Origin: Membranipora membranacea
Lineage: Eukaryota > Bryozoa > Gymnolaemata > Cheilostomatida > Membraniporidae
Assembly: GCA_914767715.1 (NCBI GenBank)
Contig: OU612071.1
Location: forward strand, 20,396,948 to 20,460,947
Length of the DNA: 64,000 nt
Direction of reading: 5' to 3'
Part shown: positions 4,183 to 23,365 of the stretch, piece after piece
Layout of the letters: the number at the start of each line of letters is the position of its first letter
Numbering within the stretch: the first letter of the stretch is position 1
Translations under genes and position numbers: made by a program
The notes under the pieces: model-generated
Seen by the model: only the letters and a program-made list of their open reading frames with translations
Databases searched by the model: none
What the model was told of the DNA's origin: nothing

Positions 4183-5843
4183 TATGGCAGCTATCAACAA
4201 GAGACTACTACTCATTACACTTCTGAAGAGGAGGGTCAAGAGAAGAAGGATGGAGGCTGAGAAACAGTGTAGGAGGTGGTGGGTGAGGCCAACACTACTT
4301 AATAGAAATCAACATGGCCAATTCCATACAATCTTGGAAAACATGAGAAACAATGACCGTGAGTAGTATTTCAGGTAAGAATTATATTTTGACACATTCA
4401 TTACACTATTCTACAATGGTATTGAATAACAACACTGTTTCTGTGGCCTTGGACTTTGCCTCCATATAAAAATGGAAACTGCTTAGCTTCTTCTACTGCA
4501 GTGTATATGTTTGTGCGGCGTATGCTACAAATATTTGTTGATAAGTAAGTTATAATAATAATAATAGGTCAAGAGTGCAGGGCTCGTCCACTAGTATGGT
4601 TGACATCTTGGTGAAGCAACATTATAGACCTAGAGATATTAGTGCTATCTAACACTAGCAATTGTCCCTTCAACCATGTACCTAGTCACTTTTTTCAAAG
4701 CCTTCTGCAGACCTTTCCCATTCTTAGTTGTGAACAAACCCGGTATTGTTGTAGATTTCTTCGAATGTCACCAGAGAGATTCGAGCACCTGGCACAGTTG
4801 ACACGGCCATATCTGACCAAGCGTTGCTTGAACAGAGAAGTAATCTGCCCAAAGCAACGCCTTGCTATAACCCTTCGCTACCTGGCGACAGGAAACATGC
4901 AGGCATCAGAGAGTTTCAACTTTGTGGTAAGTGTTGATGTGTACTCCAAAAATACATCCAGGAGGTATCATGATAAACTGTGTAAGACCTTTACATCCCA
5001 CATATTAGCAAAGGGATACAGTAGAAATATGAGTACACAGTAATTAAAACAAGTGTCCCTTTGCTGTTAAATTATCATGGCAGGTCAGAAGGCAGCGATA
5101 TGTTATTTTTACCATTCAGTTTGTATGAGAGACATTGCCTGCTCGCAGCTACGTGCAGACAGGCAGAGCTGTTAATATACTATGAATCAAAACTATGTGC
5201 TCATACAAGTATTTCTTTCCTGTCCTATTGCTTTCAGTGGCTTTTAATATGTTAATGTCAGGCATGATTAAAATATGAGCGAGCTTTTCCCTGTCCGACT
5301 GTACTTAGCTCCTACCATGTGTTTGGGGTTAGTGAAAAGCGCCCTAGTCAACACAAATAAGGCTTGAGATTAGGGCTACGCTTTCTTTGCTTTCAATGGC
5401 TTTTAATATGTTAATATATGGCATGATAAAAATATGATCAAACTTTTGCTCATATTTTTGATATTATAGCAATTTAAATCTTTTACTCAATGATTTATCT
5501 TGAAGCAGATCAGATTTTTATATACCCGTAAGATAGTGGGCTCTTTCTTGTTTCAGGTTGGGCGAACAAGTGTATCGAGGATTGTGCGTGAGGGCTGCAC
5601 TGCCATCTGGAATGCGTTGAATGAAACTTAACTCACTCATCCCAGGACTGAAGCGGAATGGAAGGCTATTGCTGATGAGTATTTTCTAGAATGGAACTTA
5701 CCACATGTTATAGGAGCATTGGATGGAAAGCATATCAACATCCAGTGCCCAAGTTCATGAGCTTCAGCCATGAGTCACTGTGTGTCAGACTTTGTGCCAA
5801 AGTTAGCAGATCATGCATTAGCAGGATCAATCAATCTTAGCTG
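4183..5843 (+). pseudogene. PIF/Harbinger transposase pseudogene, 5' exons
   Basis: Three exon-like blocks resemble Harbinger (DDE_Tnp_4) transposases. Block 4183-4361 encodes a basic N-terminus with RRWWVRP and a GQFHTILENMR segment, ending at a GTGAGT donor. Block 4751-4926 encodes RMSPERFEHL and RLAITLRYLATG and ends at GTAAGT. Block 5557-5843 follows a TTTCAG acceptor and encodes GRTSVSRIVREGCTAIW, then DEYFLEWNLPHVIGALDGKHI, which holds the first catalytic Asp. Inactivation is clear: the first and second blocks do not join in frame, and the third contains in-frame stops near 5629 and 5758. A later Harbinger exon occurs at 13738-13920. The 8 kb between them contains a hAT remnant and unrelated sequence, so this may be one copy split by insertions or two separate fragments. 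Confidence 0.78.
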
Positions 5844-6139
5844 ACAAGTGAGCAGTAGTCAATAAGAGCTAGTGAGACAAACCTGTTTTCCACCTCCTCT
5901 TTTGTTGAATCAAATTTTGCTCCAATTTCTGCTAGAGCATTAGCTTTAGTTGTCTTTCTATTCTTATAACTCTTTCGACTAGTGTCATATAGGCAGGGAT
6001 ACTCCCTTACTGTATCCATGAAGGCTATGTCATTGTTATTGCCAGGAAAATGTCTGTCACCTGTCAGCAAAAAAAAATGGAGAATGAAAGTTGTCCTTGA
6101 CATTGAATCTCTTGAACAGGAGGGAGAAATGTCAAAGAT

Positions 6140-14385: not shown

Positions 14386-14806
14386 CTGAGGTAGAAAGAC
14401 AGAAGTTTATTGTTAACCATCAGCTGTGCTTCTACTGCCTTGTGCCTAACCACAGTATAAGGAGTGCAAAACCAGACTGAAATGCAAAGCAACAGGATGT
14501 TGAGAAATACATGCAACTGTGCACCACAACAAACTAATGACCTTTAAAGACAACAAACCACAAGAAAACCCATGGAAAGAATCCCAGAAGGAACCTGAAA
14601 TACAACCCTCACCCAGCCCAAACAAGGCAGCTGAACCCAAACCAGCAATCAAAACAGACGCAACTGCCACTTGTCACAGCATCAGAAGTTTAGAAGATTT
14701 CCTAAGCATATTTATCATGCCTGTACACCTAAGCCTGTACACAGAAGGCTGAAAAAATCTGAGCTCCAGAAAAATTGACAATAAATCTGGGTAATTTTCA
14801 CCCAAA

Positions 14807-16387
14807 ATGAACAAAGGCAAGAAGAGAAAACTCATTTCCAGTAATGATCCTGATGAGGATGATGCTGAGGATAATATCTTCATCTATTCGCTCAACAAGT
14901 TGAAGGCATTACAAAAGAAAATCGACTCTACTACCACTGATGAGTCTATCACCATAAAAGGTAATCCGGGAAACATCCAAATTGTCGTTGACTGCAGCAC
15001 AGCTGTTTTTGAGCTTGTCAGATCTATATTTCAAACATCAATTCAGGAGCAATATCTTTATGTAACTAGGAAAATGAATAAAGATAAGGACAAAAACACA
15101 ACAGCCACCATATTCACCGTTAAAAACAAGAAGAAATCGGATAGACGCCTTTATACTGCAAACTTTTACCATACCACCTCTAGAATACTGGTGAATGCTA
15201 TCAAAGATGTGGATGTGTTTATAAGTCACTACTCTAAGCTGGTAGGTGAATTACAGCCAGAAACAATTGCCAATTTAAACGAGAAAGTCCGTTCCTCATG
15301 CTCAAATGCAATGGAATCGCTGAAAAGTAAACAAACCAATGCCAACAACAGCACAACTCAACAACAAAGCACACAAGGTGCTCTAGGGGGATCTACAGTC
15401 TCACTGCCAGAGTCTTCTCAGTGTTCCCTGTCTGAGACAATGGAGACTTCTGCTCCATTCGTCGACAGCGCTCCCAGTCATTCCAGGGACAGAGATTGTG
15501 GGGAGAGTCCCGGATGTTCGTCATGCAGAACTCTACATGGCGTGCTTTCTATTATGATGGAGAAGATGGACAGCATACAGGAGAAAATGGACAGCATGCA
15601 GGTTAAATTGGATAAAATTACTAGTGCTTTTTCTGAGAGCCCTAGTACAAAGGAATGTCCATCAAATTCCAAAAATACCGTACAACAAACATATCTTCCA
15701 ACTCAAACTCTTAACACCACACAACAATGGTCATCAGTTGCAAGCAGCAGTAGACAACTCCACAGAAATATTCCTTCATCAACAACACATCAAAACACAC
15801 CAACACCAAGTTCACCGGCAACTACATCCAACACACCAGATCACATGCCATCTATTACAAAAACAGCTCGTCCAAACAACTTCAACCCCAAGCACTGCAT
15901 CGTAATAAGTATCAACAAGTCATCAAAAACCTACCAAAACTATAATCAAGACAACATCAGACGTGAGATTAACCGTGAATTCGGCCCAACAATCATAGAA
16001 AACATAACGACCTACAATTTCAAGACAGAATCTCCAAAAATTATGCTGCACCTTCGCGATGAAAAGACAGTGACCAAGTTGATAAACACTTGGAATAAAT
16101 TACTATTTGAAAATTCGCAAGTAAGAAAGACAATCAATCCAGAATCAGCAAAAGTCAACACTGGTATGCTGAGAGGCATTCCTATCGATGCTGATGATGA
16201 ACTTGTAATAAAAGAGATATCACAGAATTTCCCCAACTCTTCAGCTATAAGGATTTACAAAGGGGAAAAGAAAATGCGCATCTTTAAAGTAAAGTTTGAC
16301 ACTCAGGACCAATACAACAAGGTCCTCAGTCAAGGTATGATTTTAGACTCACTTAAACTTAAATGCCATTTTGAAAAACTTCTATGA
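14807..16387 (+). CDS. LINE ORF1 protein, nucleic-acid-binding/coiled-coil
   Basis: A 526-residue reading frame with a basic start (MNKGKKRKLIS). A Ser/Thr/Gln-rich middle is followed by a short coiled coil with repeated MDSIQEKMDSMQ heptads at about residues 250-272, then a low-complexity Thr/Ser/Pro linker. The C-terminal globular domain (about 365-526) contains GMLRGIPIDADDELVIKEI and MRIFKVKFDTQDQYNKVL, the layout of the RRM-like/gag-like domain of Jockey and CR1 ORF1 proteins. No CCHC zinc knuckle is visible. Such proteins bind element RNA and form the RNP used in target-primed reverse transcription. The stop codon overlaps the ORF2 start (ATGA), which suggests coupled termination-reinitiation. 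The frame is intact. Confidence 0.8.
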   Translation: MNKGKKRKLISSNDPDEDDAEDNIFIYSLNKLKALQKKIDSTTTDESITIKGNPGNIQIVVDCSTAVFELVRSIFQTSIQEQYLYVTRKMNKDKDKNTTATIFTVKNKKKSDRRLYTANFYHTTSRILVNAIKDVDVFISHYSKLVGELQPETIANLNEKVRSSCSNAMESLKSKQTNANNSTTQQQSTQGALGGSTVSLPESSQCSLSETMETSAPFVDSAPSHSRDRDCGESPGCSSCRTLHGVLSIMMEKMDSIQEKMDSMQVKLDKITSAFSESPSTKECPSNSKNTVQQTYLPTQTLNTTQQWSSVASSSRQLHRNIPSSTTHQNTPTPSSPATTSNTPDHMPSITKTARPNNFNPKHCIVISINKSSKTYQNYNQDNIRREINREFGPTIIENITTYNFKTESPKIMLHLRDEKTVTKLINTWNKLLFENSQVRKTINPESAKVNTGMLRGIPIDADDELVIKEISQNFPNSSAIRIYKGEKKMRIFKVKFDTQDQYNKVLSQGMILDSLKLKCHFEKLL

Positions 16388-17054
16388 TGGCAATGAATTT
16401 TCATAGCGCATATCTTAATATCCGTGGATTGGCAAGCAAACTGGAAGAGGTTCGTTTAATTCTTAGTGATCACAAATTTAGTATACTGTGTTTGGCTGAA
16501 ACATTTTTGAATGAAAATGATGACAGCTGCCTATATGAGGTACCAGGATATACGATGATAAGAAGGGATAGGCTCTGTAACAATGGTGGGGGATTACTCT
16601 GCTATGTCCATGATTCACTGGTCATTGAACATCTGGAAAATTTAGATCTTTACATGGATGAGAGTATAACAGTCAAGGTCAGACCCAGAAGCCAAAAGAG
16701 TTTTTTGGTCACATACTTATATAGACCTCCCCAATCAAAAGCATCATGGAACACAGACTTTTCAGAGTTTGTCGAGCGTTGTTATGGTTTGAACGATGAA
16801 ATTATAATATTTGGTGATTTCAATATTGATTTGCTGAATCCAACTTCGAAAAACAGGTGGTTAGATAATGTTACCTCTCCACTACTGTTGAATCAACTTA
16901 TATCTGAACCCACTCGCATAAATAATTCATCAAGGACACTAATTGACCACATCTATTCAAGTAAAAGTGACAATATTGCTAAATCTGGTGTCATCAAATA
17001 TTCACTGAGTGATCATTTCATGATAGTAGCTTCAAGAGAGATTGATAGAAATGT
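16384..17054 (+). CDS. LINE ORF2, APE-type endonuclease part (interrupted)
   Basis: The N-terminal part of ORF2. AP-endonuclease-like motifs occur in order: AYLNIRGLASK with Asn12; LCLAETFLN with the metal-binding Glu39; GGGLLCYVHDSL; YLYRPPQS; FGDFNIDLL; LIDHIYSS; and YSLSDHFMIV with the catalytic Asp-His. This domain nicks target DNA for target-primed reverse transcription. The last native codons are REIDRN. From 17055 the DNA is that of the nested element, so the remaining codons up to a stop at 17148 are an artefact of the insertion. The start overlaps the ORF1 stop. Confidence 0.85.
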
Positions 17055-17083
17055 GTGTCAACACGACAAAAAGGCATATAAGT
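17052..17083 (+). repeat. Left terminal inverted repeat of nested element
   Basis: Outer TGTGTGTCAACAC, then after GAC the inner block A5GGCATATAAGT. The right end (about 21256-21286) has the same two blocks in inverse orientation, with one substitution in the outer block and without the GAC spacer. Confidence 0.8.
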
Positions 17084-17169
17084 CGCGTTTCTATTGTGTC
17101 TATAATGAGTCAATGAAGTTCAATATGATGATTCCTGACATGTGCTAGTGTTTTTGTTTTATAACTGAT

Positions 17170-17225
17170 TCTGACCAATCAAGACCTGCTCTTTTCAACT
17201 AGCTATTTATCTAACCAATCAGACA
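17170..17225 (+). promoter_or_regulatory. Two CCAAT-box motifs upstream of the nested gene
   Basis: GACCAATCAAG near 17175 and TAACCAATCAGAC near 17213 lie about 150-195 bp before the ATG at 17370, a plausible distance for CCAAT boxes. This is motif-level evidence only. Confidence 0.3.
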
Positions 17226-17369
17226 ACTAGAAATCACAATAATCTAGGGTCAAAGTTAACCCTCTCATGGTTGTCAAGCAAGTAAATCCTAGCCTCACTA
17301 ACTTCCTGTTGGACTTGATGTGGCATAAATGACGGGTGGGTTGCGCAATCGCCTTGCACAATGTTATGA

Positions 17370-20300
17370 ATGCTGAGTCATCATAACAAAGTTGTTGATG
17401 AATTAGAAATGGCTTCCAGAATGATTAACTCAGATGATTTAGCTGAGGTTTTGGCTGGATTTGATGAAGTAGATCAAGAATATTTTAACATGGAGAATAG
17501 AGAGCTAGACATAGCAGATAGAGATCATCAGGACATCAGTTTGAACATCACAGATGAACCAGATGAGGATCCTGAGTGTAATACAAGGGATATGAATGAA
17601 GACAGAGAAACTGGAGAGGTTGGGTTGATGGAAGCTGTCCATCTTTTACATGATAATTCAGATGGTGATGACCAACTACAGCCAGATAATGTTGAAACTG
17701 TTGAAGCTAACTTAGCCGAGATTGTGGGCTGTAAATGTGGCTGCGCTGACAGGATTGACTGCGCCGCTGTTAACATGGGTCGGGCCATAGCGTTAAGCCT
17801 TGATAAGCAATCGCTGGACCTCATGATCATGGGGAAAGTCAGCACTATTATACAGTGTGGTGATGAGACTGCAACATCCAGACGAAAGTCACAAGTTGAA
17901 AGGAAGTGTGTACGATGTAGATACAAGCACGAGAGTGAGTAAATACTTAAATATCCTACAAGTCACATTGTTGAATCTATCTACGGCACTTGTTGATGAG
18001 TGTGTTGTATGTCGACCTTCAAAACTGAAGACTATATAATACAAGCTAACATCTTTCTTCCAGATCTAGATATCTGCCGCAACATGTTCATGTACATGAA
18101 CGGTGTGAAGACGAGACGATTAGACACTATTATTGCAACATATGCGGCTAACAGCTTTTGTGCTCCACGGGAGTTCAAATACCAACTAGGACATGGCAGA
18201 AACAAGAAAGCCCTGACATTAGATGAATGTACAAAGGTCTACCACTACCTGACCACCACAGCCAAAGTACACGGACTAGACATTCCAGGACGCATGCCAG
18301 GTAGGGCTGGTACAATTTTTCTGTAGTTAAGTTTGTATCACTTTAGCGATATTTTTCAATTAGAATTCGTACAGGTATACTTTAATTTTGCAAGTGAACT
18401 ATTTTTAGGTGTGACTGACAACTTTCAGACCCGTCAGCTTGTAGTCCTGCCATGTAGCTTCACCAAAAAACAAATTCACGAGGGGTACACCCTAGCTGCA
18501 AATGCTGCTGGATGGAGACCAATATCACTAAGTGCATTTCAGGATGTTTGGCGACGCTTGATGCCCAACCTTATAGTCTCCAAGCCTAAAACTGACCTCT
18601 GCTGGACCTGCCAACAAAACAACATGCGCACACTAGAGTAAGTAAAATTTCAAATGTCCCTGTATGATAATGACATAAACATGTAGTTGCTTGATTAATT
18701 CAATTCTCTGATACAGGATGACTAACCTAGAAATCGAAAAGAAAGAAGAGTTAATAACTCGTCAACTTAATCACCTTAAAATCTCAACCAAAGCTCGGGA
18801 ATATATGAATCGCTGTGTTGAGAAATCAAAGCAATGCGTAGGTGACTTCATCCTCGGGGTCCATCAGCCACAAACAGGTCCAACAATGGCTCACTACGGA
18901 TTCGATTTTGCACAGCAGGTAAGTCTCTAACACATGTTCAGGAAGATTTTACCAATCACTCATTATAAAGTTGGCTTACAGCTGCTCTAGATGATGTATA
19001 AGAGTCTGTATCCATTATGTCATTGATAAAATTATATCTATCTACTTATTTTAGTGCTGATAAATTCAAGGTAAGAGCAGTGTGGTGTGGTGACTAACAT
19101 TCAATGTGCTTCTCCTCTTATTTTCCACCTAATAGATATGGTCTTCACCTGGTAGCTGACATAACACCATAATATGCTAGGCGGTAACTATCCTTTCCAC
19201 ACAAATTGTCACTTCCAATGTCATTGAACTGTTGATAGGTTTTATACCCTTCGGATCCTCTACAGCCTGGCCCAATCTATTTCAAAACTCCTCGGAAGTG
19301 TGGGTTGTTTGGAGTGTGTGCCATGGCCTTTCCGATGCAGGTCACATACATGATTGACGAAGCCGCTTCATCCGGAAAAGGTGCCAACCAAGTTATCTCG
19401 TACTTGCATCACTTTTTCGAGAATTATGGACTAGGTGAAAAGAATGTCATCCTACACGCTGACAACTGTTGGTAAGTGTAAGCTAGGATAGCGCAGTGGT
19501 AGTGATCAGTGTAATTTGAGGTTGAGTGGAGCCAAAACCATAACCGATGCTCAAAATCATAATCCCTTTTTTTCAGTGGACAGAACAAAAACAATACGAT
19601 GATGTTCTACCTAGCATGGAGGGTGGCGACTGGTAGACACCAGACAGTGGAAATGAACTTTCTCATAGCCGGACACACCAAATTTTCCCCTGATCTCCAT
19701 TTCGGGATGATAAAGAAGAAGTTCAGGAAAACACGTGTATCAAGCCTCCACACAATGAAGAAGGTGTGTATGAATGACTGGATTTTGTTGGTTGAGACTT
19801 ATAGCATCTATGGTGTTTATATGACGCTTTTACCACTTTATCTAGGTGGTCAGTGAATCTTCAAAGAGTAACATCTCTCAGCTGGTAATGGAATCTGATG
19901 GTACAGTTAATGTCCCAGTCTATGATTGGGTTGCATTCTTCAGCGGTTCCAAGGCTATAAAAGGTATAAAGAAGCAGCACAAACTCTTCTTCCCTTCTAT
20001 CACAGGTGAGACACAGACTTTAACTTCATCTATTTTTCCGTGCTACTATTGAACTTTGGCCTGAGCTTACCAAATTCTATGCGTTAATTACTTTTCACCG
20101 AATTATTAGGTATGGTTCAGATGCGAGAATCTATTGGTGCTCCACTGACGGAACATAGAGTGTATGGTGATATACCAGAAGGCTTCCCAGATGTAATTCC
20201 ACCCCCAGGCCTGGATGCTAAGAGACAGTGGTATCTGCATGATGAGATAAGAGAATTCTGTGATGCCAGGTTCATGGATGAAGTTTGTCCATTGCCTGCC

Positions 20301-20499
20301 GTCCCCAAACCAAGAGCTCCTACCCCATCACGAGGTAGGATAAGAATCTAAGACTATGTTATGTTTACGTCATAATGATCCCTACTGCTAATTGGTGGGA
20401 GGTACCAGGCATCAGAGGTAGTGATAACAGCATCAAACGCATGAAGGTGATTTCTCTGTTTCAGATGAACAGCCGCCGAAGAAAGGAAAGAGGAAATAG
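17370..20499 (+). CDS. DUF7869-like protein, candidate transposase, nine exons
   Basis: Exons: 17370-17934, 18064-18300, 18409-18637, 18717-18918, 19239-19471, 19577-19763, 19846-20005, 20110-20334, 20465-20499. All introns are GT-AG and every junction phase matches, giving 690 residues without stop or frameshift. The N-terminus is acidic, then a Cys cluster (GCKCGCADRIDC) and KCVRCRYKH suggest metal binding. The centre has VLPCSFTK, DLCWTCQQNN and HYGFDFAQQ. The conserved core is LHADNCCGQNKNN, MNFLIAGHTKFSPDLHFG and KKKFRKT. The tail is basic (PPKKGKRK). This HADNC-GQNKN signature matches the uncharacterised family usually labelled DUF7869. I infer an RNase H-like fold with acidic residues in GFDF, HADN and SPD as candidate catalytic positions. 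It is the only gene of a TIR-bounded element, so transposase is the leading guess. Family membership is from memory of motifs. Confidence 0.7.
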
Positions 20500-20544
20500 A
20501 GGAAAGAAGGCCGAGAAAACAAAATCTCGATATGCTTCACTTGG

Positions 20545-20790
20545 TATATATATATTATATATATATAATATATATATATAATAACAATAACATATTAAAT
20601 TTAATTCGTTACCTATTGGCGTAGCATTATATAAACTGAACAATTTGATCAATCGGTAGAAAAAACACTACTTAATACAGTGCTTAATTAAATATGTATT
20701 ATATTTATTATATTACAATATAATATAATAATTATATTATATTATACAACCTTAAAGTTATATTGTACTATACTTATATATATAATCATT
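20545..20790. repeat. TA microsatellite and AT-rich tract in nested element
   Basis: Runs of TATATA (about 20545-20581) and TATTATAATA-type repeats (about 20694-20790) follow the stop of the spliced gene. No coding potential. Confidence 0.7.
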
Positions 20791-21255
20791 TTGTGAACAT
20801 TATGTCATTAAAATTAATTGTGAAAGTACATCTTTCTGTCTCAGTTTATGTTTGTCGCGGATGAAATTTTCCTTAATTCTTCACGATTTACCATGACCTT
20901 TGACCCCAGAATAGCATTAATTCCATCGGTCTGATGGAAAAATCCTTTTCACTATCAAATTCTCCATGCCTTATTACCCCATATTTGTCACTTACAGGGA
21001 ATTATTCCATCATTTAATATCCGTATCCAAGGAGTTAAACAATGTAAACAATACATATATCATAATTTTAATGTTCGAATGATTCAAACCTTTGTTTCAG
21101 AGATTCACTTTTTCCCCCGAGTTGTTCTATGATGGCGGACTAATTCGCGTGTATCTTCGATTCTATTAAAGCTAGGAAGATACAGTAAATTGCATTACAC
21201 TCAGAAAGAGTTTCTCTTTCAAGTGACATCAAAAACTGGAAAAGTGAATTTCCAA

Positions 21256-21286
21256 CTTATATGCCTTTTTGTTGTGTTGATACACA
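21256..21286 (-). repeat. Right terminal inverted repeat of nested element
   Basis: Plus-strand ACTTATATGCC, a T-run, then GTGTTGATACACA is the inverse of the left end at 17052-17083. LINE sequence resumes directly after it. Confidence 0.8.
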
Positions 21287-21291
21287 AATGT

Positions 21292-23365
21292 TAAAATATC
21301 TAAACGAAGATGTAAGGTAACATTTTTGGATTATTCATTTGCAACACCTGAAAACATTTTTAACACATTCTCAAGGAAAAATTTTGGTTACGTACTGTAT
21401 GAAAGATCAATAGACTCAATGTTTGAGAAGTTCTATAGCCATTTGAATCATCTTATATCAAAACTCGTGTTTGAGAAGACTCGTTTTGTAAGAATGCATA
21501 ATCTTCCAAAATGGTTGGATGATGAGGTAAAAATGAACATCAAAATCAGAGATCAACTCAAACAAAACGGTGATTGGGAAGGATATAAAAAACAGCGAAA
21601 TTATGTCACTAATATGATCAGACAAAAGAAGAAAAGAGCTATTTCTAATACTATTAAAGAGTCTAAAGGTAATACAAAACCTGTTTGGGATGTATTAAAG
21701 AATAAAAAGAAGGAGACTTTCCCTGCGACAAATTTGAGTGCAGATCAATTTAACAGCCATTTCACATCCATTGCAAAATCAATCACAAAGAACCTTGTTG
21801 TAACAGATGAGATGACATTTCCCGTATCCAAACATAATTTGACAGACATACCACAATTCACCCCTTTCACATGTACAAGAATATTGTTCCACATTCCTGA
21901 TAGTAAAAGTACAGGACCTGACAGAATTACAGTGAATATGTTGAAGCTTGTTTGGCCTTATATTGTGGATATTGTCACCGATATGTTTAACAGGGTTTTA
22001 AGCAAAGGACAGTTCCCTTCAACATGGAAACTAGCTCGAGTTTCACCAATACATAAATCTGGGGATATAAATAACCCATCAAATTATAGGCCAATTTCAG
22101 TCTTGCCTGTTCTTTCAAAAATATTTGAGAAACACATAAATCACCATCTGCAAAAATATCTCACTAAGAACAAAATCATCCATGAGCTTCAATGTGGATT
22201 TAGAAAAGGCCATTCTTGTTCAGACAGTTTATTTAAAATTATTTCAGACTCTTTGGTGGAGAAAATTAATGGAAATGTTATGACATTACTTTTTCTGGAT
22301 TTTAAAAAGGCATTTGACTGTGTATCCCATGTTTTACTACACAACAAGTTGAAGGCTTGCGGCATCGGAGGAAATATGTTAAAACTTCTTGACACCTTTC
22401 TGACAGACAGAAGGCAGTTTGTTAAACTCAATAATATTGAATCTTGTAGATTGCCTATCACAATAGGGGTCCCTCAAGGTTCAATCCTAGCACCAACTTT
22501 GTTTCTCATCTTCATAAATGATTTATTAACTTCATCAAAATCAGACTCATCATCATATGCATATGCTGATGATACAGTGTTCCTGTCATCTAATAAAAAC
22601 CTTCAGCAACTAAAGGCAAAGGCATCTGAAGATTTAAGTGGCATTTTGGATTGGTGCAATCGTAACCGGATGGTTATAAATGTTCAGAAATCTCATTACA
22701 TGCTACTTAACATCTCAGATCCGCTTTATGACCTGGAACTGTACATAGGGCATGAAAAACTAAACAGACAGAGAACTACAAGGCTTCTGGGTTTTGTGTT
22801 GAATGACTCGCTTTCATGGCAGGATCATCTAGAGTATGTATATAAAAAGGTACAACGGAATGTTTACCTACTTCAAAATTTGAGATACTTCTTGGATATA
22901 GCAAGTGCCCGCACATTTTACTTCCAGTTTATCTATTGTCACCTTATATATGGTATCCATATCATTGGCAACTTGTCCTGCAATAATGCCCTCAATAGAT
23001 TATTTTTGTTGCAAAAACGGGCTTTACGCATTATCGCCAATGTGCATTACATCCCATATTATCTCATTTCAACCGAATCCATTACACAATCATTACAACT
23101 CCTACCTCTTCCTAAGCTTGTTTGTTATTTCACTTCACTTTTTGCGCATAAGATAAACAATTTTTTAACACCTCCATTTATATATAGAGGATTTAAAAAC
23201 ACTACCAAGTTCAATTTTCGTGATAAACATTTACTTTTATATCATACAGACAATCTAAGATACAAAGTTTCTGCTACATACAATTCTTTACCGTTACATT
23301 TGAGATCTAAAGAGAAGTTCAGTTCATTCAAAACTTTACTTTTCAACCATATATTATCGACTTGA
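21292..23365 (+). CDS. LINE ORF2, reverse transcriptase part (continuation)
   Basis: Continues ORF2 in frame after the nested element. An RT-linker region has KRAISNTIKESKG and WDVLKNKKKE. RT motifs follow: DSKSTGPDRITVNMLKL, then FPSTWKLARVSPIHKSGD and NYRPISVLPVLSKIFEK. QCGFRKGHSC, then TLLFLDFKKAFDCVSH carries the first catalytic Asp. GVPQGSILAPTLFLIFINDL follows, and AYADDTVFLSS has the catalytic Asp pair. The C-terminal region includes RTTRLLGFVLNDSLSWQDH and LLQKRALRIIANV, typical of CR1/Jockey-like elements, and ends with SSFKTLLFNHILST. No stop or frameshift is visible over 690 codons, so the element was probably young when interrupted. Confidence 0.88.

Follow-up and report, generated by a model that had tools for sequence, protein, structure and literature searches.

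The interrupted LINE and the nine-exon gene

The window (the entire 64,000-nucleotide stretch of Membranipora membranacea DNA analysed here) contains a LINE open frame interrupted by an element with terminal inverted repeats (TIRs), and a DUF7869 gene is the only gene found within that element (Table 1). An earlier sequence-only reading had placed the insertion in a LINE ORF2 that becomes continuous when the insert and one flank are removed, and this is borne out, as subtraction of the insert and one AAAT leaves the host LINE as a single 917-codon open frame across the junction. It had also described a DUF7869-like gene of nine exons with matching phases and no stops; the exons are joined by GT-AG splicing in phase, giving 677 stop-free codons, and the sole Pfam match of the 677-residue protein is to DUF7869 (PF25273; residues 444–584, E 9.2e-16).

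Table 1. Coordinates in the window of the interrupted LINE, the inserted element and its gene.
Feature	Coordinates	Strand	Remarks
LINE open frame, interrupted, 5' part	16375..17052	+	includes left AAAT; joined frame 917 codons
Left target duplication copy	17049..17052		AAAT, 4 bp
Whole element	17053..21285	+	4,233 bp
Left 31-bp TIR	17053..17083	+	AAAA block at positions 16-19 from end
Exon 1	17409..17934	+	start codon; Cys-rich N-terminal region begins
Exon 2	18064..18300	+	
Exon 3	18409..18637	+	
Exon 4	18717..18918	+	holds D394
Exon 5	19239..19471	+	holds D473
Exon 6	19577..19763	+	holds D515
Exon 7	19846..20005	+	
Exon 8	20110..20334	+	
Exon 9	20465..20499	+	stop codon
Right 31-bp TIR	21255..21285	-	
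Right target duplication copy	21286..21289		AAAT, 4 bp
LINE open frame, interrupted, 3' part	21290..23365	+	joined frame 917 codons

The host LINE (window 14795–17052 and 21290–23365) belongs to a very young and abundant family, and each of the 40 places scored, out of 110 candidates and counting the window itself, matches the 300 bp before the insertion at 99–100%. A 530-codon open frame lies directly upstream of the LINE ORF2.

Element ends, target duplication and copies in the host genome

Inverted-repeat arms that include the flanks (17037–17083 and 21255–21301) match at 81% over 47 nt, and comparison with other genomic copies sets the element ends as given in Table 1, leaving TIRs of 31 bp. 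When the host genome (339 Mb in 18 contigs) was searched for these TIRs with up to three mismatches, 13 sites were found, of which twelve form six complete pairs and the remaining one is an unpaired right end (on contig C1) that retains ~700 bp of the 3' part of the element; a reversed-pattern control gave none. The inverted ends noted earlier, and further copies that share them, are present. The left 201 bp of the element occur at six genomic places at 99–100% and at five others at 70–72%, and the right 201 bp at seven places at 98–100%.

All six pairs, which we refer to as family 1, have matching 4 bp flanks (AAAT in five, ATTT in one). The window copy is flanked on both sides by AAATGT, and the sequence-only reading took this to be a 6 bp duplication; the extra GT is unique to this copy, so the shared repeat is AAAT and the duplication is 4 bp. 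A 6 bp duplication is ruled out since it fails in the remaining family 1 copies. A 2 bp duplication with T...A tips is compatible with family 1, but we prefer 4 bp because the flanks of a distant family (family 3, described below) are AACT/AACT and TATA/TATA.

The six paired copies diverge by 1.0–1.6%, and judged by this divergence family 1 is recently active, as had been proposed. An uninterrupted coding sequence is retained in the window copy alone. One other (L011) is near full-length and carries a stop codon and frameshifts, and the remaining four (L009, L010, L012 and L013) have internal deletions of 1.8–2.1 kb, leaving copies of 2.1–2.5 kb. L009 and L010 share an identical 1,772 bp deletion and have different flanks, which indicates that the deleted element was mobilised in trans by a transposase made elsewhere. 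Internally deleted copies thus exist, and no short MITE-like copies are present among the 13 TIR sites. Four of the five other paired copies keep N-terminal exons and have lost the catalytic exons, and such copies might conceivably make repressors; the confinement of matches to residues 1–234 in all five family 2 loci (see below) can be cited for this idea, and the breakage of exon 1 in three of the four copies counts against it.

A predicted RNase H fold and a conserved D-D-D triad

Residues D394, D473 and D515 are conserved in all 17 aligned sequences. AlphaFold models of one animal and one bacterial homolog (rather than of the spliced window protein itself) have a predicted RNase H fold like that of the Mos1 transposase and retroviral integrases, with the three aspartates positioned as in that fold. 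These data support D394/D473/D515 as a D-D-D catalytic triad, with catalysis a likely property of the family, and DUF7869 most likely covers part of the catalytic core of a transposase. The suggestion of an RNase H-like transposase with acidic catalytic residues is upheld to the extent that predicted homolog structures allow; of the structural comparison that was proposed alongside it, the AlphaFold models agree, whereas the best match from Foldseek by itself (4e-3) did not reach E 0.001. No match to the protein was found in the PDB by sequence.

Other DUF7869 families in the same genome

There are 33 exon-level matches to DUF7869 above the Pfam cut-off in the host genome (window included), spread over several repeat families, and none in any of 14 control genomes. 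The five loci of family 2 (L014–L018) have left ends 70–72% identical to that of the window element, and since they match only residues 1–234 of the transposase they are apparently non-autonomous; flanks match in two of these (ATAT/ATAT and ATTT/ATTT) and are mismatched in three. Family 3 is a distant DUF7869 family represented by two copies that are 97.5% identical (L085 2031–4918 and L086 1239–4083), with TIRs beginning CTGCCC and a 486-codon open frame that includes DNCGGQNKN. Both copies have 4 bp duplications (AACT/AACT and TATA/TATA), neither of which is of the form AWWT. A third DUF7869 repeat group (L071–L074, L076–L078 and L081) has different right ends, which are built from GGTTAAGAGGCAATTGG-like repeats and lack AAAA at position 16.

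Bacterial relatives and a shared end layout

Metazoan homologs of the DUF7869 protein were found, and screening of bacterial and archaeal genomes identified relatives encoded at 13 loci, all bacterial by title. The protein of one of these (L028, Desulfocicer vacuolatum) is ~31% identical to the window protein and has the same triad. Nine of the 13 loci were searched for inverted repeats without using any motif, and long arms are present on both sides of the open reading frame in seven, close to it in L027, L028, L031, L032 and L033 and more distant in L034 and L035; this search found none in L029 and L036. The bacterial elements (e.g. L028 and L033) resemble the window element in having TIRs with AAAA at positions 16–19, and differ from it in being intronless, ~2.1 kb long and mostly G-rich at their tips. 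Flanks match in two of the seven loci (AAAT/AAAT and AATT/AATT), and the 4-mers differ in the other five; these mismatches may reflect the draft state of the assemblies, recombination among copies or a different joining rule.

We compared the first 31 bases of 15 hand-chosen ends, namely both ends of families 1, 2 and 3, one end of family 4 (L075), and one end from each of eight bacterial loci. AAAA begins at position 16 in 14 of the 15 and at position 15 in L034; because the two ends of one element are not independent, the 15 ends represent 12 elements, 11 of which have AAAA at 16. One of the bacterial ends (L039) was itself found using the AAAA motif, and the right ends of L029 and L030, also found in this way, are omitted from the comparison. 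The L071 family does not fit this layout, and at the corresponding site the L080/L084 end carries AAA rather than AAAA. An end layout common to bacterial and animal DUF7869 elements appears to be new.

Among the record names listed for bacterial DUF7869 homologs none is called a transposase. Within the class to which Desulfocicer belongs, 11 of 389 genomes contain a match, some of them weak. The longest contig is below 5 kb in 112 of the 120 listed L028 homologs (counted by eye), which fits collapsed repeats, although contigs of this size are in any case common. The Desulfocicer and HSG2 assemblies showed no further copy of the bacterial element, plasmids and phages gave no match to the bacterial protein, and viral contigs yielded no confirmed relatives and no match to a bacterial end sequence. 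In L028, an open frame adjoining the bacterial element (5214–5850) resembles an IS3-type transposase by eye and ends in the left TIR.

Classification and alternative explanations

The founding paper of the Sola superfamily is that of Bao et al. in 2009. In the excerpts of PMC10741241 consulted, Sola elements are described as having a DDD transposase, 4 bp duplications, a length of mostly 2–9 kb, and a distribution in bacteria and metazoans, and the part of PMC3627910 that concerns Sola2 gives the flanks as AWWT (ATAT, AAAT and ATTT). The window element, at 4,233 bp, is within this size range, the triad is present in all 17 aligned sequences and in the predicted fold of the homologs, and the 13 bacterial loci and metazoan homologs correspond to the host range. 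Duplications of 4 bp flank all six family 1 pairs and both family 3 copies, and two of the five family 2 copies; those of family 1 are all AWWT in the sense of the Sola2 excerpt. From the DDD triad, the 4 bp AWWT duplications, and the bacterial and animal occurrence, the element is most likely Sola2-type, by traits shared with published descriptions rather than by sequence comparison, and DUF7869, judged in the same way, most likely belongs to the core of the Sola2 transposase. The new transposon class that had been put forward is accordingly not favoured, as the triad, the duplications and the host range all fit Sola/Sola2 as excerpted. The published amoebozoan Sola2 cases, in the portion of the descriptions seen, have TIRs of 12–21 bp and carry Fanzor; the window element has 31 bp TIRs, and no second gene was found in it.

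Other known groups fit less well. Dada elements are similarly intron-rich DDE transposons of animals, but according to the excerpt of PMC3706591 they make 6–7 bp duplications and insert in multicopy small-RNA genes, whereas the window element has a 4 bp duplication and lies within a LINE. Tc1/mariner elements, of which Mos1 is one, duplicate the 2 bp TA as described in part of PMC10045372, as against AAAT or ATTT here, and the PDB search returned no sequence match. An affiliation with Zator/ISAzo13 rather than Sola is suggested by profile matches in some of 55 homologs (Pfam DDE_Tnp_ISAZ013 in six, best E 0.0062, below the cut-off; NCBIfam ISAzo13 in one, E 0.032; NCBIfam ISNCY_2 in ten, best E 1.9e-4), in lists where the absence of a family does not amount to exclusion. 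In single-protein NCBIfam and Pfam scans (ten homologs each) the ISAzo13 match was located in P0048 and P0066 and the ISNCY_2 matches were not located; P0066 scores 16 bits against a family cut-off of 26.9, and the window protein has no match. These matches are weak and partial, and the same portion of PMC10045372 gives Zator/ISAzo13 duplications as 3 bp, in contrast to the 4 bp of the window element and family 3, making this affiliation very unlikely.

A different possibility is that these are true DDD transposons of a superfamily of their own, which share the AWWT 4 bp duplication with Sola2 by convergence. The comparison with Sola by published traits and not by sequence leaves room for this, we found no mention of DUF7869 in the literature, and the TIR layout is common to bacteria and animals; however, duplication length and sequence, the DDD triad and host range would all have to coincide with those excerpted for Sola/Sola2, and we regard it as rather improbable. 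It is likewise doubtful that DUF7869 elements form an unrecognised pan-domain superfamily, in which the insertion sequences of bacteria and the intron-rich elements of animals have kept both the DDD enzyme and the end layout (a 4 bp target, 15 variable bases, and AAAA at positions 16–19). That the DUF7869 gene is a passenger on an element moved by another transposase seems highly improbable, given that it is the only gene found, that the predicted fold of its homologs is a transposase fold, and that it is again the sole gene between TIRs in bacteria and in another family of the host genome. The low copy number (six pairs) could recall segmental duplication of a host gene, yet in each of the five other paired copies homology breaks off at the TIRs or no more than a few bases away, and flanks differ, each copy having its own matching 4 bp repeat; we give this almost no credence. 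The TIRs, matching duplications, further copies and clean junctions instead agree with the DNA transposon originally envisaged. We thus consider it probable that the window element is a DNA transposon, active recently and probably autonomous, that it encodes a DDD transposase of RNase H fold, and that it is most likely Sola2-type.

Proposed movement and implications

For such a Sola2-type element, the Cys-rich N-terminal region would bind the 31 bp TIRs, with the AAAA block at positions 16–19 as its likely contact. The D394/D473/D515 triad would then excise the element and join its strands to an AWWT target at positions 4 bp apart, and gap repair following this staggered joining would leave the 4 bp duplication, a route that is presumably cut-and-paste rather than replicative. 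Copies with both ends but without catalytic exons would have moved in trans.

The identification of DUF7869 as, most likely, part of a Sola2-type transposase appears to be new, the superfamily itself being already known. In the literature we found nothing on DUF6570 together with a transposon, nor, judged by titles, on GQNKN in a DUF7869 protein. A likely function is thereby assigned to a Pfam domain that had none and that occurs in hundreds of proteins (495 and 551 matches), and since the DUF7869 proteins in the rows listed are mostly nameless, hypothetical or uncharacterised, many genes presumed to belong to hosts are probably transposons. The analysis also points to an end layout common to bacterial and animal elements, and it supplies an intact-frame copy together with deletion derivatives that match it, through which the mechanism of a transposon group that has received little study can be tested. 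One bacterial DUF7869 protein (P0138, from Candidatus Magnetoglobus) is named 'chaperonin' in public records and is probably misannotated.
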